A stretch of DNA of 64,000 nucleotides from an uncultured Armatimonadota bacterium (GTDB lineage: Bacteria > Armatimonadota > Fimbriimonadia > Fimbriimonadales > Fimbriimonadaceae), in the NCBI GenBank assembly GCA_903833215.1, contig CAILEM010000060.1:62001-126000 (forward strand). The letters run 5' to 3'. The translations under genes and the position numbers were made by a program. The first letter of the stretch is position 1. Each line of letters starts with the position of its first letter. Shown here piece after piece: positions 9,886 through 45,546 of the stretch. The notes below the pieces were generated by a model. It was not told where the DNA came from. It did no database searches and saw only the letters and a program-made list of their open reading frames with translations.

Positions 9886-10030
9886 CTTACACCGCTTGGT
9901 GCTGTCTCTCCCCGATGTCCCGAACAGTGGCGCGCTGAATGTCCATCGACGAGCGAACGGCGACGATTATGGACAACGGGGAGAGACGAGTTGGACTTTC
10001 GCTTCCCGGAACCATGCGTGCGATTGGGGA
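9886..10030. repeat. Long hairpin repeat, copy B
   Basis: This is the shorter relative of the element at 1733-1945. Its arms (GTCTCTCCCCGATGTCC at 9904-9920 and GGACAACGGGGAGAGAC at 9971-9987) pair over 17 bp with one mismatch. The loop retains the GACGAGCGAACGGCGACG stretch also seen in copy A. Arm sequences differ from copy A at positions that keep pairing. The rest of the 9793-10205 gap holds only a second hairpin and no gene. Confidence 0.7.
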
Positions 10031-10156
10031 CTCGATGGTCACAACCTCTTCTGAATCCGTCCGAAAGCACCAAAGGTGCGCCCAATTATAGCGAAGGGCA
10101 TCGCCCTGGTGGCCCGTAACAACAAATTCCGCAGACCTGTCAGGGCGACCTATCTT

Positions 10157-10179
10157 GTCGGTGGGAAATGCCCACCGAC
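10157..10179 (-). terminator. Strong hairpin after the thioredoxin-like gene
   Basis: A perfect 9-bp stem (GTCGGTGGG with CCCACCGAC) closes a 5-nt loop about 27 bp beyond the stop of the thioredoxin-like gene at 10206. No T tract follows on the minus strand, so it may slow or end transcription but is not a textbook terminator. Confidence 0.4.
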
Positions 10180-10205
10180 TTCGTCAATCGCCAAAACCCG
10201 AAAAG

Positions 10206-10823
10206 CTATTTCGGCGCGGTGGCTTTGATGTTCAGCTTTGCGAGAATATCCACCAGGCTTTGCTCGTTACCAGAACCCACGAACGACCCTGCGATTTTGC
10301 CGTCGCGGTCGATGACGTACATCGTGGGAATTCCTGGAACCTTGTACAAACGCTTGGCGATGCTTGCTTTGCGGATGCCAGCACGGTCTCCTTCGGCTGG
10401 GTCGCGAACAAAGTTGAAGTGGTATTTCGTGCCGGCGTTCTTCCCCATCCACTCTTTGAAATCGGGCTTCTGATCCCACGTGTTGAGGCTGAGCACAACC
10501 ACGCCTTTATCTTTGATCTGCTGGTAAATCTTCTCAAGACCAGGCATCGATACTTGGCAAGGACCACACCAGCTAGCCCAGAAGTCGAGGATGACGACCT
10601 TTCCCTTGAGGTCGCTAAGGTTGACCTTCTTCTCATCAATTGTGAATGCACTGAAATCCGGAGCCTTCTCACCGGTGGGTACTCCCTTGAACTCGAACGC
10701 CGGTGGGCGCGCCGCTGTCCCTGTATTCACTGCCTGTGCAGGCAGCGATTGCTGGGCGCAGGCAACAGCAGCAAGGCCCAAAACAGTGGCAAAAATTCCT
10801 GACAATCTACTTATTGCTTTCAT
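10206..10823 (-). CDS. Exported TlpA-like thiol-disulfide oxidoreductase
   Basis: This 205-residue exported thioredoxin-fold protein probably reduces or shuffles disulfides outside the cytoplasm. I start it at the ATG complementary to 10821-10823, which begins a clear signal peptide (MKAISRLSGIFATVLGLAAV, then ACAQQ). The mature part has the AhpC/TSA-like entry (GEKAPDFSAF) and the active-site WASWCGPC with C86 and C89. The cis-proline loop (VPGIPTMYVIDRDGK) is intact. It stands alone with no cytochrome biogenesis genes nearby, so the partner is unknown. The frame is open upstream for 19 codons but those lack signal-peptide character. Confidence 0.9.
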   Translation of the reverse strand: MKAISRLSGIFATVLGLAAVACAQQSLPAQAVNTGTAARPPAFEFKGVPTGEKAPDFSAFTIDEKKVNLSDLKGKVVILDFWASWCGPCQVSMPGLEKIYQQIKDKGVVVLSLNTWDQKPDFKEWMGKNAGTKYHFNFVRDPAEGDRAGIRKASIAKRLYKVPGIPTMYVIDRDGKIAGSFVGSGNEQSLVDILAKLNIKATAPK

Positions 10824-10894
10824 AAACTTCTTGGGGTCGCGAGCGTTTCCATAATACAGCGGATTTCGGCCGATACTCATTGTAAGAATCCTGA

Positions 10895-11320
10895 CTAAAC
10901 CTTGAGACGCATGATAAACTCTCGAGCAGAGATGATCTCAGTGGTGCTAATTCGCACCAACGTCAGCAGGTCCTCATCTCCGGAAACGAGGAAATCGGCA
11001 TGCCCTCCGCAAGCCAACTCAAGGTACTTGTTGTCTCCCGGATCGCGGCATATGTCCACTTTCGGCATGTTGCCGATTCGCTCGCTTAGCGAAGCGATAG
11101 CTGCAAATGCTGATGCCCGAGCCTCTCTGGTCACCCATCGATCGAATTTTTGCCTGGAGAGGACAGCGGCCAACTCATCTAGAGTCTCAATCGACTGCAA
11201 AATAGTGCAGTGCGAGATTGCCAAGGAGAGCATTTTCCCGGGCAGTGAATTCGGAAACATCAAGCCACTCACGATCACATTTGTGTCGAGAACGACTCTA
11301 GGCTCACTCTTCGTCGGCAA
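10895..11320 (-). CDS. PIN-domain toxin (TIGR00305-like family)
   Basis: A 141-residue PIN ribonuclease with N-terminal RVVLDTNVIVSGLMFP and a later CRDPGDNKYLELA motif followed by ADFLVSGDEDLL. Both are hallmarks of the putative toxin PIN family TIGR00305. The acidic residues for metal binding are present. Its start overlaps the 3' end of the upstream small gene by 17 bp, the usual antitoxin-toxin order. It probably cleaves RNA when released from the antitoxin. The target is unknown. Confidence 0.88.
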   Translation of the reverse strand: MPTKSEPRVVLDTNVIVSGLMFPNSLPGKMLSLAISHCTILQSIETLDELAAVLSRQKFDRWVTREARASAFAAIASLSERIGNMPKVDICRDPGDNKYLELACGGHADFLVSGDEDLLTLVRISTTEIISAREFIMRLKV

Positions 11321-11540
11321 GGATATCTTCCAATATTTCGAGGCTTAAGCCGCTTCTCTGAGCTTCTTGACCTAGCCGCGCCTGGGCCATATTGAACTGA
11401 GATATTGCCTCTTCCTTGGAGCGAGTACCTAGAAACTCAATGAATACTCTAATAGCCAAGTTGCGCTCAGCTTCTGATGCGTGGACGAATGCATCTGCGA
11501 CATCCGGAGAAACTGGGATTGAGATTTGACTGAGTGCCAT
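11304..11540 (-). CDS. Probable antitoxin partner of the PIN toxin
   Basis: A 78-residue protein encoded just upstream of, and overlapping, the PIN toxin gene. From the internal ATG at 11540 it reads MALSQISIPVSPDVADAFVH; the frame is open to 11567 but the shorter form fits the family better. The short N-terminal strand followed by helices resembles a ribbon-helix-helix DNA-binding fold. The acidic C-terminus (SLEILEDILADEE) suits toxin binding. The assignment rests mainly on gene order and overlap. Confidence 0.72.
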   Translation of the reverse strand: MALSQISIPVSPDVADAFVHASEAERNLAIRVFIEFLGTRSKEEAISQFNMAQARLGQEAQRSGLSLEILEDILADEE

Positions 11541-11633
11541 TGAAAGATAATACGACGGGAAGGTCAAGATTCGACATCCAAGCTGGAAAAGATTGTTCTA
11601 TGTCTCAGGGCGCTGTTGACCTTTCAAACACCT

Positions 11634-14129
11634 TTAGTCGCTGGTATTGGCGTTCATGAACCACTTTCTCAGGAGCGATTCGACTTGCCCAGCCTTGACC
11701 GTACTCATGTCGATCGCGCCGACGTGCTCGGGGTAAGCCATGATCTCCAACAGGTGTCGAATCGCGACTAGGCTTGACTCCTCATACAATGCATACAACC
11801 CGACGCGATCGGTAGACGCGAGTGGCTTCTGGGGCGAGACTTCCGGCCACGGTTTGTCAGGAGTCCAGGGGACCACGTCGAGACAGAGGCTGGGTAGTAC
11901 ATGTATCACCGAGCTTCTTGGTTGAACGTAAATCGGCAACGTAATCCCTGAGAGCATGGCCGTGAAGCGATTGATCGCATCGGCATTTATCTTCGAACGA
12001 TAGGCGCACCACTGCTCCGGAATCGGCTGCATTAACAGGCTCGGACTTCCCGGCCTGTAATCGTAGTGTCCCAGGTTTCCGTCAATGAAGAACGGTTGCG
12101 AGATGTCGAAGTTGAGTTCGATATCGGGAGTGGCGACGTCGATTGGATCCACTCCATGAGCACGAAGAAAGCTTAATCGCATGGATTCCGAGTAACCGAA
12201 TTCGTTCAGAACGGCTAGCCAGTTCTCATAGAACGAACCCCAACTGATGCGCGAATCAGTCAGTTCGTATCCCAACGGCCTAGATTCAATGAGGACAAGC
12301 CCGTTCAGCCCAGGCGTGCGCGCTAGTGACGCAAGTTCCGTCCAACGACGCTCGACACCGGGGTCCAAATGGTCTACAAGATCGTAAATTGGCGGTGGCC
12401 CAAGACCGGACGCATCACCCATCGATTGGGCCCTCTGCCAATCCGGTTCTAGAGCCCGCCTGGCCGCAAGTTGGGTACCGGTATCACCAAGGATATTCAA
12501 ATCTTGGACATTTCTCGAAGTCCCAGAAAGCGCTTTCCATGGCCGGATGACCAGACTTACCTTTAGCCCAGATTTCACAGCGGCTGAGACGGCTTCCTTG
12601 TGGTGCGTTTCAAGCCAGACCTGCTTGAATCCATGTCTTCGCGCCGCGTCCAGCACCATCTCCGCCTCGTGTTTGCTTTCCGCTCGCACAATCAGTCGAT
12701 GCCTACCTGTCACTCCCGGTGCGGTGGGGTTGATTTTGATCTCAGGCTCAACCTTGGGTGCATCTGGAACCCTAAACGACATGCGCTGCCCGAGAGATTC
12801 CCCAGAAAGTTGTTGTCCACTTGGGAGTACAAGCACGTACTCAATCACCGACTCTATGCCAACGTGGTGAAGATCAAACGGGTCTGCTCTCCTCTGAACG
12901 GCAGCATGGCTGATGAGATCACGCATCGGTTGAGTCAAGTCGGCAGTCGGAACCAGCTCCTCTGTATCCAGACTCAAAAGGGCTCGGTCATTCGGCGCGA
13001 ATGGGCTCTTCTCGTCAAAACCGACCTTTGACAATGCACCAGACTTCCCAATTTGGCTATGCCAAAGCCGCTGTCGCCTGTGTAGTTCCCTGTTTACAGT
13101 AGCGCTCCAAGCGGCGAACTTCAGTTTGCGCACGCCCATGCCCGCGATCTCGGAGGTAAGCACAAAGCTAGGACCGACCTTTCGATAGGTACCAGTGACG
13201 CATAGTGCCAGCCCTTTGAGCAAATCGCTCGCCTTGGCTTTTGCTCCCCAGCACTTCACTTTCAGCCCGGATACCCGTATGTCCGAAAGAAGTTCCATGC
13301 CGGTTACAGACCCGACCGCTTGAAGAACACCTTTGATGGTTGCTTCCGCAGGCAGGTTCACTTCCGTGTTGAGGACGGGGTCGCGATAGTTAAGCTGGGA
13401 GGGCTTGAGTTCGTTGGGGACAGACTTTCGCGGTTCGATGCCAAAATTCGTTCTATAGCCTGAGTCACGTAAGTTGATCGTCTTATCGCCCGGTTTGCCG
13501 CGCCACTCATGGGGAGATAGCACAGAATAGCTCCTCGGATTTTCTTGGATAATCAAGTGGAATAGCAGCCCAGACTGCAGCTTCAACTTGACGGAATCGA
13601 GTTGGTCGCCAGTAAGCGTCTGCTCGTCAACCTGTTTTCCGAGAGTGCTGTCACCATCGACGATGTGAGTTGTGTACGTCAGGCTTGGTCCCAGGATCGA
13701 TTTGAACACCTTGACCTGCTCGCCCTGGAGATCTGATATTCCAATGCCTCCAGCCGCCCCAGTTTTGGCTTGTTCTGGGGTGAGGGTGGAAACAAGATAG
13801 AGGACCTTATCAGTGCGCGCTAAGCCGTCGTACAGGTTCGGCTCCTGGAGGAGCGAATCGTCAATCAGAACCATATCTCGGGGAACGATGGCCGTGATGG
13901 AACCGAGACTGGCAGGCTTTCTATCAAAGAGGTTCAAGGAAGCTGCCCCGTGCTTCGCCCTGACATGATCCGGATCAACCACGATCATCGGCCCCGATTT
14001 GGAAGCATCCCAGCCATGGCCGGATAGGTAGTCAGACAGGCTGTCGGTGCTCTGTCCCGTCTGCCCAAGCGTGGACAAGGCTATTGCGAGAAGGGATGCG
14101 CCTTTGATCCAGAGCCCAGAAATAACCAT
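11634..14129 (-). CDS. Large exported protein with STN-like and TIM-barrel-like parts, function unknown
   Basis: The 831-residue protein starts with a signal peptide (MVISGLWIKGASLLAIALST, cleavage after TLGQTGQS). I do not recognise a named family. At about residues 260-335, the pattern LLSDIRVSGLKVKCWGAKA, then DLLKGLALCV and YRKVGPSFVLTSE, resembles a secretin/TonB short N-terminal (STN) domain. From about residue 480 on, strands such as FKQVWLETHH and GLKVSLVIRPWKA, and a later SWGSFYENWLAVLNEF, resemble the TIM barrels of uncharacterised glycosidase-like proteins. No catalytic pair can be assigned. It is divergent from the sugar ABC transporter, so a role in glycan sensing or breakdown is possible but unproven. 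Confidence 0.6.
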   Translation of the reverse strand: MVISGLWIKGASLLAIALSTLGQTGQSTDSLSDYLSGHGWDASKSGPMIVVDPDHVRAKHGAASLNLFDRKPASLGSITAIVPRDMVLIDDSLLQEPNLYDGLARTDKVLYLVSTLTPEQAKTGAAGGIGISDLQGEQVKVFKSILGPSLTYTTHIVDGDSTLGKQVDEQTLTGDQLDSVKLKLQSGLLFHLIIQENPRSYSVLSPHEWRGKPGDKTINLRDSGYRTNFGIEPRKSVPNELKPSQLNYRDPVLNTEVNLPAEATIKGVLQAVGSVTGMELLSDIRVSGLKVKCWGAKAKASDLLKGLALCVTGTYRKVGPSFVLTSEIAGMGVRKLKFAAWSATVNRELHRRQRLWHSQIGKSGALSKVGFDEKSPFAPNDRALLSLDTEELVPTADLTQPMRDLISHAAVQRRADPFDLHHVGIESVIEYVLVLPSGQQLSGESLGQRMSFRVPDAPKVEPEIKINPTAPGVTGRHRLIVRAESKHEAEMVLDAARRHGFKQVWLETHHKEAVSAAVKSGLKVSLVIRPWKALSGTSRNVQDLNILGDTGTQLAARRALEPDWQRAQSMGDASGLGPPPIYDLVDHLDPGVERRWTELASLARTPGLNGLVLIESRPLGYELTDSRISWGSFYENWLAVLNEFGYSESMRLSFLRAHGVDPIDVATPDIELNFDISQPFFIDGNLGHYDYRPGSPSLLMQPIPEQWCAYRSKINADAINRFTAMLSGITLPIYVQPRSSVIHVLPSLCLDVVPWTPDKPWPEVSPQKPLASTDRVGLYALYEESSLVAIRHLLEIMAYPEHVGAIDMSTVKAGQVESLLRKWFMNANTSD

Positions 14130-34520: not shown

Positions 34521-37500
34521 TCACACTGCCACAGCGTAAACGCTCTTGTCGCCTTCGGGATACTTTTCGTAGAAGTGGTCAAAGACGGCGGAGCACTTGT
34601 CCTTGTAGATGTCGGGACCATACTTCTCGGGCAAGCCTTTGTCTAGACAGTCGTCGATTACCAAGCGAACGCGAGAGAACGAACTGCGCTTCTGACGCCA
34701 ATCGATGACCATGTACTCCTTCAGTCGCGCAAGCATTTCACGCGCCACCTTCTTTACTTCTTTCCGTTCGGCATCAGAAAGGTCCGGTGCCGGGCGGGTA
34801 AGGATGTCGAAGACTACTAGCTCTTCTTCGGACATCTGCTCACGGACATGCCGCTGCTGTTCCGCGCTCATCCCCTGCGCGAGGTTGACGAGTTCCTCGA
34901 ATAACTGCTCTATGCTAGCTGCGCCCGTATTGTAGGCATCGATCAACTGGTTGAATTTGTCCAAAAAGTCGATGCGCGTCTTGTTTAGCAAGATCAGCTT
35001 GTCCAGTTGTGCCTTGATTGCTGCCTTAAGTGCTTCAATCTCTGTCTGCTTCTGCTGAGACTTCTTGAATTTGGCGTTCAGTGCCTCGAAGTCAATCTTG
35101 GAGAGGTCTATCTTCGGAGTCTCGCGTACCGAATACCCCGCACCCACAATCGATGCGTCTAGAACCCTCTCGATGCTAGCGAGCACATCGTCCAGCTTCA
35201 TCGGTGTGGGCGTAAGTTTGGTCTTGATCGACGCCGCGATGACGCCCAAACACAGCACCCTACCCATGAATTCAATGGCCGAAGGGTGCGGTTTCACTGC
35301 TCGATACAGCGTTTCGACCAACCTCACATGCCCCAGAAAGTTCTTCCGCAGCGGGTCAGGTGCGATCAATTTCTCAACCGCTTGCACAACCAACGACAGC
35401 CGTTCAATCGATCCTGCTGGTTCCGATTCGATGGCATCAATGCTCACGCCATGTTCGTGGCAAAATGCTGCGGCTTCCTCAACCGCTGAGCGAAGCGTCT
35501 CCGCTAGTCTGTCCTTGTCTCGAACGGGCGTCTCGCCGCCGCTGCCCTTCCCATAGATCGCAAGTGCCTTCTCAAGAGACAAGAACACATTGGCGTAATC
35601 CACGATCACACCGGAATACTTGCCTGGAAACACACGGTTCGCCCTGGCAATGGTCTGCATTAGCGTGTGGTTGCGCATCGGTTTGTCCAGATACACCGTT
35701 GAACAAGACGGCGCATCAAAACCGGTCAGCCACATGGCACATACGAAAACAATTCGAAGCGGATCCAAAGTGTCCTTAAACTTCTCGTCAAGGTGCTCCT
35801 TGTTCATCCGCTCGCGGTGGGGCAAGATATTCAGCCCACGGGCCCTCATCGTCTCTATCTCGTTCTGCTCGGGTGAGACGATCACGGCCATGTCCGTCGT
35901 CTCCATTATACGGCGTCGTTCCGTCAGTTCCGCCCGCTCAGAATCCGACAGGCCGTCAACGAGTAAGCGCTTTGAGACGCGCTCGAACTCCTTCGCCCAG
36001 TGCACCCAAACCTTGTCATACATGCGCAGGGCCGTCGCTTTGTCGATTGAAACGACCATTGCCTTACCCTGAAAACCGCGACCTAGGAAGTGAGATACGA
36101 TGTCCTTCGCCACCGTCTCCAGGCGGTCATCACGAGTGATGAGGTGATACTGCGTTCCTAAGAGCTTCTCCAGGCGGTCTTCGGCGTCCTCATCCAATCC
36201 CGCCGCTTCCACCACGTTGTAAATGTCGTCGTTGAGCTGCGGATTCACTAGTTGAAGCTCAGGAGTTCGGTTCTCGTAAAACAGGGGGACCGTGGCATTG
36301 TCTTCCACCGATTGCTGGAAGTCGTAAATCGAAACGTAGTCGCCAAAGATCTCGCGAGTACGTTCCTCCCCTGCGATCAGGGGGGTACCGGTAAACGCCA
36401 CAAATGTGGCCTGCGGCAAGGCGGCACGCATGTTCATCGCCATCGTGTCGTATTGGCTACGGTGGGCTTCATCCACCAGTACGATCACGTCGCGGCGATC
36501 GCAAAGCACTTCGTTGGTCTGAAATTTGTGGATCAGTGTGAATACGTAGCGGTGGTTGCCGCCCAACAATTCTCGCAGGTGCGCGCCGGAAGTTGCATGG
36601 CACTGTTTGCTCTCCGCATCACTTACGGCCCCACACGCCTTAAACGTTTTGGCTATCTGATCGTCCAACTCCACCCGGTCAGTGATGATCACAAACGTCC
36701 AGTTCCCAGGGTGCTTGCGCAGAATTTTCTGCGCAAAGAACACCATCGAAAAGCTCTTGCCCGAGCCCTGGGTATGCCAAAACACGCCGCCCTGTCCGGT
36801 AAGCGTCTCGCGGGCTTTCAGCGAAGCGAGGATGGCGTTGTTCACACCTAAGAACTGGTGGTTCTGACCGACGATCTTAGCGACTCCCAAAGAAAGCTCG
36901 CTAAAGACGGTGAAATTCTCTACTAAGTCCATCAAGCGCGAGGGTTCGCAGGTCCCCCGCAGGATCACCTCAAGCGATATGCGGCGCGGCTCGTCTTCTC
37001 GCTCAATCCGTTTCCACTCAAAGAAGCGCTCCCAGTCCGCGGTGAGAGAACCCACATGGCTGTCCGTTCCATTGCTCGTGATAAGGAGCGCGTTGTAGAC
37101 AAAGAGGCTAGGAATCCCATTGAGCGAATGCTTGTAGCTGGTGAGGTTTTCATCGAACCCGACTCGGTCATCCACACCCGGCTTCTTGAACTCCATCACG
37201 ATGAGCGGGAGGCCGTTTACAAAGAGGATTACGTCCGGGATCGCCGCATACATCGGCCCTTGAATCTTCAACTGACTGACCGCCAAGAAGTCGTTTCTGT
37301 CGACGTGTTGCCAGTCGAGAATACGCACGCGCTCCTGCTTCTGTCCGCCATGTTGGTCGTCGGGAAGGGAGACGAGCACTCCATTCTTGAGAAGTTCGTA
37401 GACTTCGCGGTTCGCTCCAACGAGGCTCATGCCGCTCCGGTCCGCCGTGACCTGGTCGACGGCGTTCTGAATCGCCGAAGGCGGAAATCCCGGGTTCAAC

Positions 37501-37679
37501 GCTTTCAGCGCAGAGCGCAATCGAGGGCCGAGAACGACCTCGCCTCTCGCACTCCTTCCGAGTGAACCATTCGCAACATCACCTTCATGGAGCGCACTCG
37601 TCACCGACCAACCCATCGAGGCCAGCAATGAGAGCGCTGGTTGCTCTACTAGCTGATCTTCGGTGTAGTCGTGCGACAT
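34521..37679 (-). CDS. hsdR: Type I restriction enzyme HsdR (nuclease/translocase subunit)
   Basis: The 1052-residue protein is the motor and nuclease of a type I restriction-modification system. The N-terminal nuclease domain has VNGLPLIVMEFKKPG, containing the ExK of the PD-(D/E)xK fold (about residues 155-170). The SF2 helicase follows with Walker A HTQGSGKSFSM (lysine about 303), DEAH-box VLVDEAHRSQY (about 400) and motif III FTGTPL. The C-terminal helical part contacts HsdM. Length and motif order are complete. It is last in the operon, separated from hsdS by the reverse transcriptase gene and a 223-bp gap. Confidence 0.97.
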   Translation of the reverse strand: MSHDYTEDQLVEQPALSLLASMGWSVTSALHEGDVANGSLGRSARGEVVLGPRLRSALKALNPGFPPSAIQNAVDQVTADRSGMSLVGANREVYELLKNGVLVSLPDDQHGGQKQERVRILDWQHVDRNDFLAVSQLKIQGPMYAAIPDVILFVNGLPLIVMEFKKPGVDDRVGFDENLTSYKHSLNGIPSLFVYNALLITSNGTDSHVGSLTADWERFFEWKRIEREDEPRRISLEVILRGTCEPSRLMDLVENFTVFSELSLGVAKIVGQNHQFLGVNNAILASLKARETLTGQGGVFWHTQGSGKSFSMVFFAQKILRKHPGNWTFVIITDRVELDDQIAKTFKACGAVSDAESKQCHATSGAHLRELLGGNHRYVFTLIHKFQTNEVLCDRRDVIVLVDEAHRSQYDTMAMNMRAALPQATFVAFTGTPLIAGEERTREIFGDYVSIYDFQQSVEDNATVPLFYENRTPELQLVNPQLNDDIYNVVEAAGLDEDAEDRLEKLLGTQYHLITRDDRLETVAKDIVSHFLGRGFQGKAMVVSIDKATALRMYDKVWVHWAKEFERVSKRLLVDGLSDSERAELTERRRIMETTDMAVIVSPEQNEIETMRARGLNILPHRERMNKEHLDEKFKDTLDPLRIVFVCAMWLTGFDAPSCSTVYLDKPMRNHTLMQTIARANRVFPGKYSGVIVDYANVFLSLEKALAIYGKGSGGETPVRDKDRLAETLRSAVEEAAAFCHEHGVSIDAIESEPAGSIERLSLVVQAVEKLIAPDPLRKNFLGHVRLVETLYRAVKPHPSAIEFMGRVLCLGVIAASIKTKLTPTPMKLDDVLASIERVLDASIVGAGYSVRETPKIDLSKIDFEALNAKFKKSQQKQTEIEALKAAIKAQLDKLILLNKTRIDFLDKFNQLIDAYNTGAASIEQLFEELVNLAQGMSAEQQRHVREQMSEEELVVFDILTRPAPDLSDAERKEVKKVAREMLARLKEYMVIDWRQKRSSFSRVRLVIDDCLDKGLPEKYGPDIYKDKCSAVFDHFYEKYPEGDKSVYAVAV

Positions 37680-37918
37680 GGCGTATTTTTCATGTTACCA
37701 ACCTTCCCATTGACACAGAAGATCAACACTCAGTTTTTAGCGACGGTGGTCGTGGACACGAATTTCCTCGGCCCAGCGTGTAGCCGACTTCTCAGGAAAG
37801 GATATTCGATTCTGTAATGGGACTCATCGAGTGCGACCGGAATCGGTAGGTCGTCGCGGCATCCGATGCCCACCGAACGATGAATTTTAACTGATAGAAT
37901 GTTTAACCGCCTCGCCAC
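37680..37918 (-). other. Spacer between RT and hsdR genes with possible small ORF
   Basis: All other junctions in this operon are overlapping or within 10 bp, but 223 bp separate the reverse transcriptase stop from hsdR. A 62-codon frame (37730-37918, starting MARRLNILSVKIHRSVGIGC) begins inside the last codons of the RT gene and has plausible codon use. I do not recognise it. The spacer could alternatively carry an hsdR promoter or a non-coding RNA used by the RT. Confidence 0.4.
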
Positions 37919-40854
37919 TTGCTCGCCTTGAACCCAATCGGCACAGGTTTGAACTTGCGTGCCTTAGAATACTCCCGTAGATGAGATCGATCGCGAATCC
38001 GATTAAGCCGGGCAATTAGCTTGGTCTGGTCCTCACAACTCATTTCCGGCCGCCGCAACTGGTATTGCCTCAACTGCATGAAGTCAATTTCTCCAGTCAA
38101 TACGAAGTCGTCCCGCCCGCCTTTTACCCTCAGGATGTCACGTTCATATCGTTCGCAGAATGGACCACGTATCCAACTATCTCCAAAAAGGCGATTGTTG
38201 ACTTGAATGATGTATGCATGCAGATCCGTGGCAGAAGAAGCCACCATGTTGCTGAATCCATCGGTATCTCGATTCCATTCCAAGACGAATAGCCCATCGA
38301 TTTCACCGCGCAACGGTGTTCGTAAATCGAGATTGGTGAAATCGCTACAGATCAGTGCACAAAAGCAGAAGCCATCGTGACTGACCAATAGTGGCGATTG
38401 CGATCGGCTGACGAACTTAAAAGCCTGCGGTTTTGCGTGCTCTAATTCGAACTTTTCAACCCATGCTGGTTGTGTCTTGTCGCTTCGAATCGCAATGGTC
38501 AGTCCTGGCAGACTATGTGATGTCAGAGCGAGAAGCGCCTGATTTTGCACGTCATGCCCCACAACTTTATACTCAAGACCGGCGATGAGCGAGATGTTCG
38601 CATTGCCAAGTAGTTCCACAACGCCTTGCGCCCATCGCCGGGGCAGACAAAGTTCTGGCATAACGAGGTAATCGACTTGGCCACGTGCCCTCAAGGTTGC
38701 GGACACAATTCCGCGAATGCGTTCATATCTTGACAGCCTAGTCGGCGGAGAAGGAGCAAGTGACTGCAGCAGATCATCGTTCCGTGTCTCAACGCTTGCA
38801 ACTGCAATTACTGCACTACCGGGATTGAGGCCACGGGAAGTGGTGCCACCTGTCCCGACCTTCAGGCGTTGCAGTCCGACAGCCTCCTCATGGTATTCCA
38901 GCGGCAAGTTACTGCCTCCATATCCCCTAAAGGCACGAAGGTATCTCGCCACATTTGGTAGCTCCTGCAGCGGCAGGCATGAAGTGATTGCATAAGTGGA
39001 GAGTGGTCGAGTTGGGAACAGAATGGGACGCCAGTCAAACGGTGGGAGGGTGACGATCTCCTGGAATCTACGTACTTCGCTAGGAAGCAGATCCAGTGGA
39101 GTTGCATACTGTAATTGTTCCTGCGGTTCGCCAGCAATCCACCGTTCACCGTATGGTGCGCGCGCCCAATCGGCGGCGTGTAGATCTCGACTAAGCGCGC
39201 TAGCGTCAATGTCGCCCACAGTAATGCTGCCTAGTTTACGGAGGATCTGGGCTGAAAGGTCTGACACAACTCCGAAATCCTCCGCCTTCGCCGCCCCTAC
39301 CACTGCCTCGACGAGTTGCCATGATAGTAAATTCCAAAACCGCTCCGCCTGCAAGCCGTCCCTTGGAGAAACCACCTCCTTCAGGAGTACCAATTTCTCT
39401 ACGAACTCTTCCCAATCCCGTTGATCATTGCAGGAGACCATTAAGGCGATTACCCAGGGTAAGCGTTTGAAGTAGGTATAGAACTCGTCCGGCGTGAGGC
39501 AGTGCCTGATGATTAGTCCATAAAACCTCGATCGAATCGTTTGCCAATCAAATGGGGCAAGGTCGATGTCATAGCGTTCCATCAGTCGTAGCATTTGGGT
39601 AAAGGCCGCTCTTCTTAGCTCAATGCTCTTGGCTGACCTAAGCTCATGCACCTGGATGTTGTCACCATCTCGCAGAATCAGCGCCCGTCGGCCAAGTTCC
39701 ACCGGATCAGAGGGCAACGGAGGCTTAACACGCTGCTCACTCGATCTGGCGTTTTGCTCTTCAATCAACGCTTGAAGGATTTCTACGCCTGCCGGTCCAT
39801 GTAACCGCTTGATTGAGGTCTTTTCCCTCGAAAGCTGCAATGCCGGGTGATCCCTCACAACAACCCTTACTTCTTGTTCTGTGGAGGCCTCACTATTGAA
39901 GCGGAAACAGCTAACGGAGCTAACGAGCCTGTCCATGGCTGCCGTACTGCTAGCATCCTCGCCCGCTCTGCTGACTGCTAGGAAGATATCGTCGACGTAT
40001 CTGCCATAGTAAACGTCGCCAAAAATCCCCAATTCGCGATCCATCGGCGTGAGTAGGACATTAGCGATCAGGCCGGATGCAGTCAGCCCCACCGGTAGGC
40101 CGTACTCAATACCCAGACATTGTCGAGTCCATGTGGACATCGCCTGCAGTAGATGCTTTGTTAATGGAATTGCATGTGGGTAGCCCAAAGGGTCCTCTAT
40201 CGACGCAATCTCATTTGAAATGAATCCTGGCCTTATCTCATGGTAAAAGTCTTTTAGGTCAAAGTTGTACACAACTACGTCTCGATTTTCCGCCAAGGCC
40301 CTCGAAATCGCTTCGTAGCCATTTGCTTGCCACTTGCCATACTGTTCGGCGAAAGCACGAAACAGACGATGACTGTCCATTTTCATCGCACCACTCGCAT
40401 CTCTCAAGCGGTCAACTCGATTCGCGAATACATGACGGTCTGATAGCAACCTATCTAGGTGCGAACCAGCATGGATAATCCACAGTGCGCTAAGCACTTG
40501 GGCTTCTACTGTCGGGTCGATGATATCGCGGAACGGCATTAACGATGGGCTATCACGATCTTCATTTCCTTGCCACTGCAAGAGCGGATCTGCGTCGAAG
40601 TAATGCCACCTCGACTGCTTGGGCTGCTGGCGAGCAGGGCGCTTAGGAATGCTGGTAAGTGCACCAACGTTCTGTGCGTCCGACCAATAGTCAGTTTCGG
40701 CCTCTCCCAAATGTGGCAATAACTTCTCCAGATTCGCCACCAGGTCCTGCTCAAAAGCTGCAAACTTCAGCCCGCTCGCCACATTCCCATCACGGTATGC
40801 TTCTGCCTTAGCCTTACGGTAGGCAATGAATAGTTCGTTGAGTGATAATTCCAT
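37903..40854 (-). CDS. Defence-associated reverse transcriptase fused to nitrilase (DRT1/UG1-like)
   Basis: The 983-residue protein joins two enzymes. Residues about 110-340 are an RT palm: motif A NFDLKDFYHEI (197-207), motif B GLPVGLTASGLIANVLLTPM (252-271), and the catalytic YVDD at 286-289. A helical middle (about 400-630) precedes a C-terminal carbon-nitrogen hydrolase: E734 in LVMPELCLP, K801 in WVEKFELEH, C836 in ALICSDFTN form the Glu-Lys-Cys triad. RT-nitrilase fusion is the hallmark of class 1 UG/Abi RTs (DRT type 1, UG1; UG5/UG6 are relatives), which protect against phage. Sitting between hsdS and hsdR, nine bases after hsdS, it is transcribed with the restriction system. Motif integrity suggests both activities are live. 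Confidence 0.92.
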   Translation of the reverse strand: MELSLNELFIAYRKAKAEAYRDGNVASGLKFAAFEQDLVANLEKLLPHLGEAETDYWSDAQNVGALTSIPKRPARQQPKQSRWHYFDADPLLQWQGNEDRDSPSLMPFRDIIDPTVEAQVLSALWIIHAGSHLDRLLSDRHVFANRVDRLRDASGAMKMDSHRLFRAFAEQYGKWQANGYEAISRALAENRDVVVYNFDLKDFYHEIRPGFISNEIASIEDPLGYPHAIPLTKHLLQAMSTWTRQCLGIEYGLPVGLTASGLIANVLLTPMDRELGIFGDVYYGRYVDDIFLAVSRAGEDASSTAAMDRLVSSVSCFRFNSEASTEQEVRVVVRDHPALQLSREKTSIKRLHGPAGVEILQALIEEQNARSSEQRVKPPLPSDPVELGRRALILRDGDNIQVHELRSAKSIELRRAAFTQMLRLMERYDIDLAPFDWQTIRSRFYGLIIRHCLTPDEFYTYFKRLPWVIALMVSCNDQRDWEEFVEKLVLLKEVVSPRDGLQAERFWNLLSWQLVEAVVGAAKAEDFGVVSDLSAQILRKLGSITVGDIDASALSRDLHAADWARAPYGERWIAGEPQEQLQYATPLDLLPSEVRRFQEIVTLPPFDWRPILFPTRPLSTYAITSCLPLQELPNVARYLRAFRGYGGSNLPLEYHEEAVGLQRLKVGTGGTTSRGLNPGSAVIAVASVETRNDDLLQSLAPSPPTRLSRYERIRGIVSATLRARGQVDYLVMPELCLPRRWAQGVVELLGNANISLIAGLEYKVVGHDVQNQALLALTSHSLPGLTIAIRSDKTQPAWVEKFELEHAKPQAFKFVSRSQSPLLVSHDGFCFCALICSDFTNLDLRTPLRGEIDGLFVLEWNRDTDGFSNMVASSATDLHAYIIQVNNRLFGDSWIRGPFCERYERDILRVKGGRDDFVLTGEIDFMQLRQYQLRRPEMSCEDQTKLIARLNRIRDRSHLREYSKARKFKPVPIGFKASKWRGG

Positions 40855-40863
40855 CGTCTGAAC

Positions 40864-42015
40864 CTAGTCGCGTGACGGACTGCTAAGTAGGAGCTTCTTC
40901 AGAAGCAGGTCGCGAGTTTGGCGGAGGTTGTGCGCCTGGCGTACGAGGATCTGCTGTTCGCGAATTGCTACATCAAACACATCGCTGAACTGTTCCAACA
41001 AGCGCTCAGGCGGCACAAAAAAAAGCGTTTTCTCCAATACGTGCCAGTTAGCTCGCGGCATCTTTGATCCATTTGAACTTGCGACTGATTGGGCGACAAA
41101 GCCGTCGCTGCTCACCAAAGCCGTCACAAGAGCCGAATACTTGGGTTGCTTAGCGCGGATGACAATAGTGTCGGCGGAGCATAGTCCGTCAAATGGGGCG
41201 ACACTGACTTTGTGGAAGTAGGGGCGGATTTTCCCGAAAAGCACTTCGCCTTGCCGGAACTCTAGCTTGTTCGAGCCTAGTTCCGAGGTTGTCTCCCAGT
41301 CGTCAAGCGCCATTGACCTTCTTGGGATGTGTTCAAGTCCAACATAGGGCACTAGCTCGTTCAAAGCGCCTTTCGGGACGTTGCGTCGCACTTCCTGACA
41401 AACATCCTTTAACTGCCTCACGTCCCAACCCGGCGGTGCCAAAACCGACTCAAGTCCTAACGTGTGCAACACGCGAGGCACGGATTCGTGGCCGGGGTAG
41501 CGGAAGTGGACGAACCACTCGCGGTATAGGCTGCGGGCCATTTCCTCTAGGATTCGGATGCGACGCTGGCAGTTTTCGATCAGGTCGTCGTAGGCTGACA
41601 AGATGCCCGCGATGCGCCGCTGCTCTTCGAGCGATGGCCAAAGAATCGGAATCGAGTGAATGTGATTGCGATTGAGCGACGGGTTCGATGCGCCTGCGTC
41701 GTATTGCTCAAAGTGCATCGTCTGAACGAAGTAGTAGGCGAATTTAGCGTCGTTGCCGCGGAAATCCTTGACCCAAAGGGTTGTGTCGTGCGGCCAGTAA
41801 CGCCCCTCTTCAAAGAAGGCAGAACCTAGGGTTCCCTTTCGACCAATGATAAGACCTGGTCCTTCAAGCTTGTACTCGAAGTGAGTCGATTTTGGCCCTG
41901 ATGACGAATAGACTGGATATGGTCCATCGGACTGTTCGTCTTTTGTAATGTCGAAGCCACGCTGGAATGTTAGTTGATCACCTAACGTCGTTTTGGTCCA
42001 TGCGCACCGACTCAT
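40864..42015 (-). CDS. hsdS: Type I restriction enzyme specificity subunit HsdS
   Basis: The 383-residue protein determines the recognition sequence. It has two target-recognition domains: the first starts TTLGDQLTFQRGFDITKDEQ and ends before the conserved helix EEQRRIAGILSAYDDLIENC (about 130-150); the second starts WDVRQLKDVCQEV (about 200) and ends in the distal helix LLEQFSDVFDVAIREQQILV. The two long helices form the spacer coiled coil. It overlaps hsdM by 4 nt, so the two are co-translated. Its two half-site specificities cannot be read from sequence by eye. Confidence 0.96.
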   Translation of the reverse strand: MSRCAWTKTTLGDQLTFQRGFDITKDEQSDGPYPVYSSSGPKSTHFEYKLEGPGLIIGRKGTLGSAFFEEGRYWPHDTTLWVKDFRGNDAKFAYYFVQTMHFEQYDAGASNPSLNRNHIHSIPILWPSLEEQRRIAGILSAYDDLIENCQRRIRILEEMARSLYREWFVHFRYPGHESVPRVLHTLGLESVLAPPGWDVRQLKDVCQEVRRNVPKGALNELVPYVGLEHIPRRSMALDDWETTSELGSNKLEFRQGEVLFGKIRPYFHKVSVAPFDGLCSADTIVIRAKQPKYSALVTALVSSDGFVAQSVASSNGSKMPRANWHVLEKTLFFVPPERLLEQFSDVFDVAIREQQILVRQAHNLRQTRDLLLKKLLLSSPSRD

Positions 42016-43724
42016 GCCTCCAACATCTCCGCGACGTTTTGGGCGATAGTGGCTTCGAGCTCGCGCGCTAGGAGGTTCAAGCTTTCCAGTTCTTCGTTCA
42101 ACGCTGTGAGGCGTTCTTTGAAGTCCTCGTCACTGACATCTTCGCCGGGGGCGACGCCAACGTAGCGGCCCGGATTGAGGCTATATTGTTGTGCGACTAT
42201 TTCGTCGATAGTAGCGGCCCTGCATAATCCCAGTACGTCGCGGTAGATTGGCCCAGTTTCGCCCACAGCAACTTCTCGTTCAGTTGGGTGATGGCAGAAG
42301 AGTTCCTTAATCTTTGCTTTTGCCTCATCGCCGCCTAGGGTGTAATCGAGCTCTTCGCCTCTAAAGAGCCGCACGACATTCGCAAGAAAGCCGATCTGGG
42401 AGGTGGTCCAGTCGCGGTGGGCCCGGTCGATTTGGCGATAGATGTGTCGTGCATCCAGGAATAACACCCTCTCCTGGCGCCAAGTGTGTTGAGCTGTCCG
42501 TCGGCGGGTCGCTTCGTCGGCATCATGCGCCATCTTCAGGTCTGCAGACTTGGACGCATCGAGGAACCACAGCGTACACGGCAGCGTGACGGTATAAAAC
42601 ATGTTCGGGCCGACGGCGACCATGACATCCACCACGCGGCCTTCGATCAACTTCTGCCGAATATCCTGTTCGCTCGACCGTGCGTCGGATGCTGAGTTTG
42701 CCATGACGAACCCGGCGCGGCCGGTCTCGTTTAGCGAGGAATAGAACAACTGAATCCACAGGTAGTTCGCGTTATCCGTACGCGGCAGGCCGAGAGGGTA
42801 CCGTTTGCCAAGTCCGGTGGCACCGGCTAACCGCTCTTTATCCACTGCGTTCACGTTAAACGGCGGGTTGGCGAGCACGAAGTCGAACCTACCAACCGCG
42901 CTGTGCGGGTCGTCGTAATAGCTGTTGATTTCACCGCCGTGCTTGACGTCCCCCTCTAGTCCGTGGATGGCGAGGTTCATCCGTGCGAGCTTGCCGGTTT
43001 CGTCCGTTTTTTCGACCCCGAAGATGCTGAGTTCTTTGCCCGGATCGCTCTTATGCTCGCTGACGAACCGTGCGCTCTGCACGAACATGCCGCCGCTTCC
43101 GCAGGCGGGATCCAGGATGCGTCCATGGTACGGCTCCAGAACTTCAACAAGTAGCCGGACGATGGGGCTGGGCGTGTAGAACTCTCCGCCCTTGCTGCCT
43201 TCGGTTCGAGCGAACTCGCCCAGAAAGTATTCGTAGATGCGGCCAAAGGCGTCGAATTCGAGGCTAACGGGTATCTCACTTACTTTCTTTAGCAAGTCCT
43301 TTAGGAGCGAGCTGCTAAAGATGTTGTACGTCTTGGGCAATACCCCTGCCAGTGACGGGTTATGCAGTTCAATGTCGCGCATCGCGGCATTGATCGCCTT
43401 GCCAATATCGGCATCCTCGGGCAGATTCAAGAGATGAGGGAAGCGTGCGGTATCTGTGAGATAGAGAACACCTTCCGCGCTGTAGGCCATCGGATCGTCT
43501 ATCTGACTGCCACGCCGTGAGCTAGTGGCGGCGGCTTCGAGCTCCTTGTGCCGCTTCTCGAATCTGGCTTCGGCAAACCGCAGAAAGATGAGACCCAAAA
43601 TTGGCTGGGAATATTGCGCGGCAGTGAGTCCGCTGTTGGCGCGGAACTGATCTGCCGCCGCCCATAAACGCTGCTCAAGCGCCTGGTTATTCACATCACG
43701 TTCGGTCGGAGCAATCCACTTCAT
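42012..43724 (-). CDS. hsdM: Type I restriction enzyme DNA methyltransferase HsdM
   Basis: The 570-residue adenine methyltransferase has the N-terminal HsdM helical domain (LEQRLWAAADQFRANSGLTA), the SAM-binding motif ILDPACGSGGMFV (about residues 205-217) and the catalytic motif FDFVLANPPFNV (NPPF at about 285). The C-terminal ELESLNLLARELEATIAQNV helix packs on HsdS. Full length with intact motifs. It opens the operon on the minus strand; upstream is a gene fragment of an MNT nucleotidyltransferase. Confidence 0.97.
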   Translation of the reverse strand: MKWIAPTERDVNNQALEQRLWAAADQFRANSGLTAAQYSQPILGLIFLRFAEARFEKRHKELEAAATSSRRGSQIDDPMAYSAEGVLYLTDTARFPHLLNLPEDADIGKAINAAMRDIELHNPSLAGVLPKTYNIFSSSLLKDLLKKVSEIPVSLEFDAFGRIYEYFLGEFARTEGSKGGEFYTPSPIVRLLVEVLEPYHGRILDPACGSGGMFVQSARFVSEHKSDPGKELSIFGVEKTDETGKLARMNLAIHGLEGDVKHGGEINSYYDDPHSAVGRFDFVLANPPFNVNAVDKERLAGATGLGKRYPLGLPRTDNANYLWIQLFYSSLNETGRAGFVMANSASDARSSEQDIRQKLIEGRVVDVMVAVGPNMFYTVTLPCTLWFLDASKSADLKMAHDADEATRRRTAQHTWRQERVLFLDARHIYRQIDRAHRDWTTSQIGFLANVVRLFRGEELDYTLGGDEAKAKIKELFCHHPTEREVAVGETGPIYRDVLGLCRAATIDEIVAQQYSLNPGRYVGVAPGEDVSDEDFKERLTALNEELESLNLLARELEATIAQNVAEMLEA

Positions 43725-44365: not shown

Positions 44366-44415
44366 TTACTTTAGGCAGGAGATTGGGACGTACGCCTTGC
44401 CAAGGGAACCAAAAA

Positions 44416-45546
44416 ATGGACGCCACAATAGTTGCCGCCCTTATTGCCGCCGGAACTGCCCTGCTGATTAAATTGCTGGACTTTGCTCCTCGAAAGATCA
44501 GTTCCTCGGACACTTCATCAGAGGCAAATACATCGCAACATCAGCCACCAAAGGCTCGGCGCTTCGTAGCTGCCATATTGGTTGCCTGCGTGGTTTTTGG
44601 GGCCGTCTTTATTCTTTGGCCGTTTTTGGTTCGACCGGATCGCGTGTCGATGGATGAGGATGGGCTGTTAAGACTTCAGGGTACATACTTGAAATCGAAC
44701 GCTAACCATGAAATCTTGGATAGTTCACTAGTTGAGAATATCGCTCTAAAGTCTCTTCTAACAAAGTCGAGGTCCGCCAATCCCCCGGTCGAAACAATAG
44801 AGACTATTTTCGTCGATGCTCAAGTCCGTGCAGTGCCACCACATGCAAAACTAGAGGAAATCAACGATTGCTTCCGTTACTACAAACTCCAGTTCATAAA
44901 GAGGGTGTCTCCTGCCCGCGACCCACTTCTTGTGCGCGGCCTGAGCCGCCCGAGCAAGCCAGGTCGGCAGCCGCTCGAATGGATGTTCCCTTATGATACG
45001 ACAATAAGAAACACGCTTAATGGGCAAGGAGGTACGGTCCCGTATTTGTGGATCCAGCCAATCGACGAGCCCTCAGTGCTCGTAGCAGCCGCATACCATG
45101 ACCGATTTGCAGAGCACGACTGGATTCTCGTTGAAGTTGACGACTTCACCCGAGCCGCGCCTGTTAAGCACGTTGTCGTGGGAATCACCCACTTATCACT
45201 AGTAGTAGCCGGGAATGCAAATGGTCCCACGACAACTAAGGCCTTCGACGTGGTTCAGGACAAAGACCAAATTACGGTCAAGCTGCATAAGGAAGAACCA
45301 CGGCAGGCGATTTCCCCGTTTGAATCTAGCCGTGAACTGGCTGATCTGTACAACGCTGTCCGTGACCTCATTGATACTAAACTCCCAAATTTGCCTACCG
45401 GCCCTAACGCATCGGTAGATGCCGCAGAAATTGCCACTTTTCACGAGGTGCTTTGGATGTTGAAGAAATCAAACCCGATGGTGTCCCTTATTGACATCGC
45501 CAACGAGCCGAATAACGTTTTAACTTTTGTGAATGTACCGCAGTGA
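44416..45546 (+). CDS. Two-TM membrane protein of unknown family in the defence island
   Basis: From ATG 44416 the protein has 376 residues. One hydrophobic segment is at the N-terminus (TIVAALIAAGTALLIKLL), a polar linker follows, then a second TM segment (about 51-73, FVAAILVACVVFGAVFILWP). The remaining roughly 300 residues form a soluble domain (for example GGTVPYLWIQPID then HDRFAEHDWILVEVDDF), outside or inside depending on topology. I recognise no family. Its stop overlaps by 4 nt the GTG start of an ATP-grasp gene, so the two work together. A defence function is suggested only by location. Confidence 0.75.
   Translation: MDATIVAALIAAGTALLIKLLDFAPRKISSSDTSSEANTSQHQPPKARRFVAAILVACVVFGAVFILWPFLVRPDRVSMDEDGLLRLQGTYLKSNANHEILDSSLVENIALKSLLTKSRSANPPVETIETIFVDAQVRAVPPHAKLEEINDCFRYYKLQFIKRVSPARDPLLVRGLSRPSKPGRQPLEWMFPYDTTIRNTLNGQGGTVPYLWIQPIDEPSVLVAAAYHDRFAEHDWILVEVDDFTRAAPVKHVVVGITHLSLVVAGNANGPTTTKAFDVVQDKDQITVKLHKEEPRQAISPFESSRELADLYNAVRDLIDTKLPNLPTGPNASVDAAEIATFHEVLWMLKKSNPMVSLIDIANEPNNVLTFVNVPQ

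Follow-up and report, generated by a model that had tools for sequence, protein, structure and literature searches.

Why does a gene for a reverse transcriptase (RT) fused to a nitrilase sit inside a type I restriction-modification (RM) operon? The window (the whole stretch of DNA analysed, 64,000 nucleotides from an Armatimonadota bacterium) carries such a gene on its minus strand, as a frame of 983 amino acids that runs from an ATG at 40854 to a stop at 37903 with zero internal stops. The operon, on the same strand, has the order hsdM, hsdS, RT-nitrilase, hsdR, with a 4 bp overlap between hsdM and hsdS, a 9 bp gap from hsdS to the RT-nitrilase gene and a 223 bp gap from there to hsdR. Each hsd gene has the domains expected of a type I system, as shown by Pfam and PADLOC, and Pfam RVT_1 was found in the fusion. 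An earlier, sequence-only reading had placed the RT-nitrilase between hsdS and hsdR, just past hsdS on the same strand, and gene coordinates and Pfam agree with it; Pfam and PADLOC also confirm its description of a type I RM operon with the fusion integrated in it.

42012..43724, minus strand: hsdM, type I N6-adenine methyltransferase subunit, 570 amino acids (Pfam N6_Mtase 1.9e-72, HsdM_N 1.4e-21)
40864..42015, minus strand: hsdS, specificity subunit, 383 amino acids (Pfam Methylase_S 4e-18; PADLOC Specificity_I 1.9e-96)
37903..40854, minus strand: RT-nitrilase fusion, UG5-nitrilase (class 3 defence-associated RT, DRT), 983 amino acids (PDLC03780 RT_UG5-nitrilase; AlphaFold2 model)
34521..37679, minus strand: hsdR, restriction/translocase subunit, 1052 amino acids (HSDR_N 3.8e-41, SWI2_SNF2 3.6e-71, T1RH-like_C 1e-38)

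The 4 bp overlap and the 9 bp gap make joint expression of the restriction genes and the RT gene plausible, but hsdR could have a promoter of its own in the longer gap before it. Scans for promoters and terminators did not rise above chance level, and the window contains no Rfam RNAs or tRNAs. In the parts checked, the remainder of the window mostly encodes metabolic or regulatory functions (glycoside hydrolases, ABC transport, peptidases, a kinase), so the hsd-RT unit seems to be a defence operon on its own, not a piece of a large island. A 387-residue frame at 44383-45546, divergent from hsdM and without a Pfam or PADLOC match, is followed by an ATP-grasp protein gene that overlaps it by 4 bp.

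The fusion is a UG5-nitrilase. Its top PADLOC match, PDLC03780 RT_UG5-nitrilase (E 1.7e-191), spans residues 2-980 and thus the full length, whereas the Drt1a profile scores 4.7e-28, with its best stretch (723-934) in the nitrilase only. Identity with DRT1/UG1, as first suggested, was therefore rejected, and so was the accompanying class 1 label, since nitrilase RTs are assigned to class 3 DRTs (PMC13275509). The broader proposal of a UG/Abi RT linked with defence and joined to a nitrilase stood, as did the suggestion of a branch distinct from DRT1: profile scores favour UG5-nitrilase and a family tree places the protein among UG5 members. In this tree, with DRT1-like rows as outgroup, the window RT falls in a clade marked 98* with L012, L015 and L016 (the latter two from Chthonomonas sp., Armatimonadota), although its long branch makes the placement less sure. 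That terminal branch measures 1.63 against a median of 0.33, so the protein's function may have shifted. It differs from other UG5-nitrilase members in this long branch, in its low identity to them (about 21-33%) and in its position inside a type I operon, and has in common with them the full-length profile match, the order RT, helical part, nitrilase, and its length. The impression that it was shorter than typical did not hold, as UG5 members are mostly 970-1120 residues long and only DRT1/UG1 is longer (9YFD chain, 1229 residues). Nor was placement with group II introns or retrons, which the sequence-only reading had said would count against it, borne out: neither the profiles nor the Foldseek ranking of the RT and helical part supports it. 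To judge from their names, DRT5S and DRT5L of PMC13275509 are probably UG5 forms.

Conservation was assessed from two alignments, of 79 rows and of 60 members, and the model of the full protein was confident (AlphaFold2; pLDDT 86.5, pTM 0.89). The protein divides into two parts.

38872..40854, minus strand: N-terminal RT and alpha-helical part, residues 1-661 (RVT_1, Foldseek, invariance of D199 and Y286-V-D-D289)
37924..38835, minus strand: nitrilase domain, residues about 674-977, with E734-K793-E800-C836 (fold match, conservation, profile)

The YVDD motif reported at residues 286-289 is present, and D199, D288 and D289 are invariant in the 79 homologues. The nitrilase triad had been given as E734-K801-C836. 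E734 and C836 are conserved, but position 801 varies among family members (E 35, D 13, A 8, R 8, K 4), and K801 was rejected as the catalytic Lys, the conserved one being K793 (78 of 79 homologues); E800 is the probable second Glu. In the 79-row alignment the window protein has the complete catalytic set (D199, D288, D289, E734, K793, E800 and C836). It keeps 52 of 56 near-universal residues, the four lost including Arg 894, which is replaced by Trp. The nitrilase assignment itself was upheld by matches to PADLOC nitrilase models and by the fold, in which residues 674-977 match amidases and nitrilases (Z 23.7, 241 residues, rmsd 2.8 with amidase 4kzf). Residues 1-661, folded separately (pLDDT 85.8), gave DRT6, UG15, DRT9, DRT4, AbiK and Abi-P2 as the top Foldseek ranks, over >500 columns. 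When the bare RT core was compared with a second aligner, DGR and group II RTs scored equal or higher (Z 16-18), as expected from the common palm-fingers fold.

DRT1 (UG1; 9YFD) resembles the window protein in its YVDD RT, helical middle and C-terminal nitrilase with a matching active site, but the window protein is about 250 residues shorter and its profile score is not that of Drt1a. The profile match between the two is confident in the nitrilase (1.8e-36 to the DRT1 nitrilase), and in the RT too when the RT parts are globally aligned. 9YFD was absent among the fold matches listed, possibly owing to its release date. AbiA and AbiK have the UG/Abi RT fold and the helical part, but lack a nitrilase and belong to another class; both have been reported close to RM genes (PMC8934634). 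A further likeness to DRT1 is a conserved Ser, in the family of the window protein, at almost the same position after the palm.

39739..39741, minus strand: codon of S372, candidate protein-priming residue (invariance, predicted loop, parallel with DRT1 S402)

S372 is the sole serine invariant across the 60 homologues, and lies 83 residues past D289, on the margin of a loop predicted with low confidence (372-376, pLDDT <50 in the AlphaFold model). DRT1 primes on S402, which is 77 residues past D325 in a loop not resolved by cryo-EM (PMC13275509). In a forced global profile alignment the two serines fall about 3 residues apart, with no exact overlap. According to the DRT1 authors (PMC13275509), conservation of S402 does not extend to other class 3 DRTs, so S372 as a primer is offered as a prediction that makes no claim of homology. 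S372 is a candidate for the DNA primer of UG5-nitrilase, and the family alignment yields both this residue and the E734-K793-E800-C836 nitrilase site as targets.

Is the RT-nitrilase a fixed part of this operon? The closest hsd-operon relatives in the class (HsdM 63-88% and HsdR 66-88% amino acid identity) are all without it, and related operons carry other genes, or none, between hsdS and hsdR. The nearest sister operon, in genome G016, is 78% identical to the window in hsdM DNA and 88% in HsdR protein. Alignment of the two by blastn (about 79% DNA identity) runs through hsdR, stops 50 bp before it, and resumes 25 bp inside the 3' end of hsdS.

37730..40888, minus strand: cargo interval without DNA homology to G016 (blastn breakpoints 37729 and 40889, against L132)

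At the position of the cargo, G016 has 979 bp of other sequence with an unrelated 195-residue orphan gene; an RT remnant was sought in this slot and none was found. Elsewhere the slot holds a GmrSD-DUF5655 protein, an M78 protein resembling RmrA and a DUF4411 protein (G014), an OLD-like TOPRIM ATPase (G041, with a Fic gene also between hsdM and hsdS), or TIR, HipA-like and DUF3037 proteins (G065). G019 has an M78 protein after hsdS on a contig that ends before hsdR, and the slot is empty in the more distant operon of G012. The GC3 of the RT gene is 0.535, compared to 0.673 for hsdM and 0.683 for hsdR. As DNA homology ends sharply at its borders, the hsdS-hsdR slot is swappable, and the differing slot genes, the breakpoints, the lack of an RT remnant in G016 and the contrast in GC3 are direct evidence of cargo exchange. 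These sister operons make the hsdS-hsdR gap a practical hunting place for new defence genes.

The same embedding recurs across bacteria, well beyond this operon. A genome scan with a single protein query found zero relatives, and an alignment-based scan of one genome per species (84,980 species) succeeded, giving 588 pattern matches and 199 relatives. The window and the best 80 of these 199 make up the 81 loci considered here, and a copy was counted as embedded when it lay in a same-strand run with hsd or BREX genes, with gaps under 200 bp. By this measure 15 of the 81 loci have a type I context and 13 of the 81 a BREX context.

Type I loci: window, L014, L015, L016, L039, L044, L050, L057, L061, L070, L072, L075, L077, L078, L083
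BREX loci: L023, L027, L030, L034, L038, L040, L041, L052, L055, L058, L066, L069, L071

Type I genes were checked with Pfam at L007 (= L015), L008 (= L016), L014, L039, L044, L050, L057, L061, L072, L077, L078 and L083, and BREX genes with PADLOC at L071 and L040. L065 was left out of the type I set because its helicase is unlike HsdR, and L060 because it has an HsdR fragment only; L019 and L087 have hsd genes near, but outside one such run, and were uncounted. The RT directly follows a specificity-domain gene in the window, L015, L050, L072, L077 and L078; in three of these, the window, L015 and L078, it is flanked by hsdS and hsdR. At the BREX locus L071 it comes after HEC-02A/HEC-02B, and a split PglX brackets these genes, with its N-terminal half on one side and its C-terminal half on the other. 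Most of the other loci are solitary: among the best 80 of 199, many homologues have neither a type I nor a BREX gene within 10 kb; they have the same architecture as the embedded copies and are mixed with them on the tree. Type I contexts require at least 9 changes on this tree and BREX contexts at least 7, counts that are rough because the tree was built quickly and several of its branches are long. No relatives were found in phage records, and among viral contigs L092 and L093 only are clear, near-full-length and strong-scoring relatives.

Could this pattern reflect no more than the clustering of defence genes in islands? In 46 of these genomes (202 Mb) there were 83 HsdR-like helicase matches, so that a randomly chosen position has about a 1% chance of lying within 12 kb of one. 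About 11 of 47 RT loci had such a helicase within 12 kb (binomial p about 1e-12; about 0.005 with an assumed tenfold island enrichment). No DRT1 was found in 369 genomes for a control set, so AbiEii of the same genomes served instead: 2 of 35 AbiEii places, counted by hand from coordinates, were within 12 kb of an HsdR-like helicase (Fisher p 0.03), and both apparently fall in loci that had entered the set through their RT. This control sets the RT pattern apart from general defence-island clustering only modestly. The touching reading frames are the stronger argument: the RT recurs in type I families that are unrelated and in BREX, its frame overlapping its neighbours or nearly touching them, which suggests selection for co-expression or co-transfer.

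We consider it likely, with a probability of roughly 70%, that the RT-nitrilase is a UG5-nitrilase class 3 DRT that travels as exchangeable cargo in the hsdS-hsdR slot and acts in the manner of DRT1. The hsd operon would give it mobility and probably shared expression too, and the cargo would provide a second, independent line of defence. Template-free, protein-primed synthesis has been demonstrated for the class 3 enzymes DRT1 and DRT5S/L (PMC13275509). By analogy with DRT1, the RT would synthesise untemplated DNA primed on its own protein (possibly at S372), and this DNA would gather the nitrilase domains into a controlled oligomer. Phage infection would then free the nitrilase, which could hydrolyse a metabolite and so abort the infection. 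As the solitary homologues indicate, an RM partner is not required everywhere, and the protein probably works alone; together with the unrelated effectors in the sister slots, these homologues make cargo that acts autonomously more likely than an obligate partner. On the simplest reading, the operon would carry a self-sufficient abortive system like DRT1. The repeated embedding in restriction and BREX operons suggests that DNA-marking immunity comes packaged with a second-line weapon against phage, and it is possible that the RT acts as back-up once restriction is evaded.

A closer tie would be a guard of restriction, in which the Hsd complex silences the RT-nitrilase, or is sensed by it, and the enzyme fires when a phage anti-restriction protein blocks Hsd. 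PrrC with EcoprrI, and PARIS with Ocr, are models of such guarding. Recurrence in type I and BREX systems, both inhibited by anti-restriction proteins, is what a guard role predicts, and at L071 the RT adjoins HEC-02A/HEC-02B, with HEC-02A showing a weak resemblance to AriA of PARIS. PrrC occupies the same kind of slot in a type I operon (PMC3874165, PMC12707154). Like PrrC, the RT-nitrilase is probably an infection-aborting effector embedded in an hsd operon, but PrrC is an unrelated anticodon nuclease, and dependence on the Hsd complex is its demonstrated feature. The many solitary homologues, alike in architecture to the embedded copies and intermixed with them, and the chemically unrelated effectors carried in the same slot argue against a guard, which we regard as unlikely. 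If it were true, UG5-nitrilase would sense, by means of an RT, that restriction has been evaded, in type I and BREX systems alike.

A looser tie would be plain co-location, the slot being no more than a hotspot of recombination in an operon that moves horizontally, and the RT being tied to restriction by place only. Every sister operon has different slot content, the GC3 of the RT departs from that of hsdM and hsdR, and the surroundings in the window are metabolic, all in keeping with this; hsdS-hsdR has already been proposed as a recombination hotspot for defence systems (PMC12255303). The selection suggested by recurrent, nearly touching frames speaks against it, and we judge it quite unlikely. 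It is very improbable that the window protein is a fast-evolving copy, decaying or repurposed, that may have lost its defence activity: its long end branch and the four lost near-universal residues, Arg 894 among them, fit decay, but the open frame, full catalytic set and confident AlphaFold model do not.

Embedding in hsd operons has precedents, as PrrC (PMC3874165), DarTG2 and TgvAB are defence genes known from such operons. DarTG2, in the RRDM island of EPEC, sits between hsdS and hsdR, which its authors call a potential recombination hotspot for defence systems (PMC12255303); it is likewise an independent defence in the same slot of a type I operon, but a toxin-antitoxin rather than an RT. 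TgvAB, embedded in the type I cluster of V. cholerae VPI-2 (PMC11411939), is also independent, but is a type IV restriction pair with no RT. A survey of BREX names many embedded effectors, with no RT among them (PMC12839542). We found no report in the searchable literature of UG5-nitrilase in RM or BREX operons, though an earlier mention is possible, and none in searchable papers of recurrent embedding of a class 3 DRT. Research has kept DNA-marking immunity (type I RM, BREX) separate from the RT immunity that synthesises DNA, and this arrangement joins the two layers. Should the embedding mean cooperation, the RT-nitrilase could answer what follows restriction failure.

Several further features of these loci are recorded here. 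At L071 (6464-14775) the two PglX halves correspond to positions 1-621 and 622-1173 of a single PglX profile, and at L023, L034, L052, L058 and L069 the BREX PglX is likewise two genes with the RT between the halves. The RT-nitrilase is itself present as two adjacent or overlapping frames at L060 (9953-13172), L075 (10001-12966; 534 and 454 residues, 4 bp overlap) and L026 (about 10000-13000), which are either frameshifts or natural two-gene versions. Genes of 185 and 277 residues lie together between hsdS and the RT at L057 (8098-9494) and L070, a possible accessory pair, and L061 has a 189-residue relative of the former plus a KwaB-like gene of 305 residues. L019 (Acidicapsa dinghuensis) has the RT, an AbiEii match and a type I operon on the opposite strand, all in a stretch of about 12 kb. 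Type I operons repeatedly carry DUF5655, alone or fused to GmrSD; it is a candidate companion of embedded defences.

DUF5655 places: L007 9237-10139, L008 5077-5973, L039 13030-13941, L133 4255-6360
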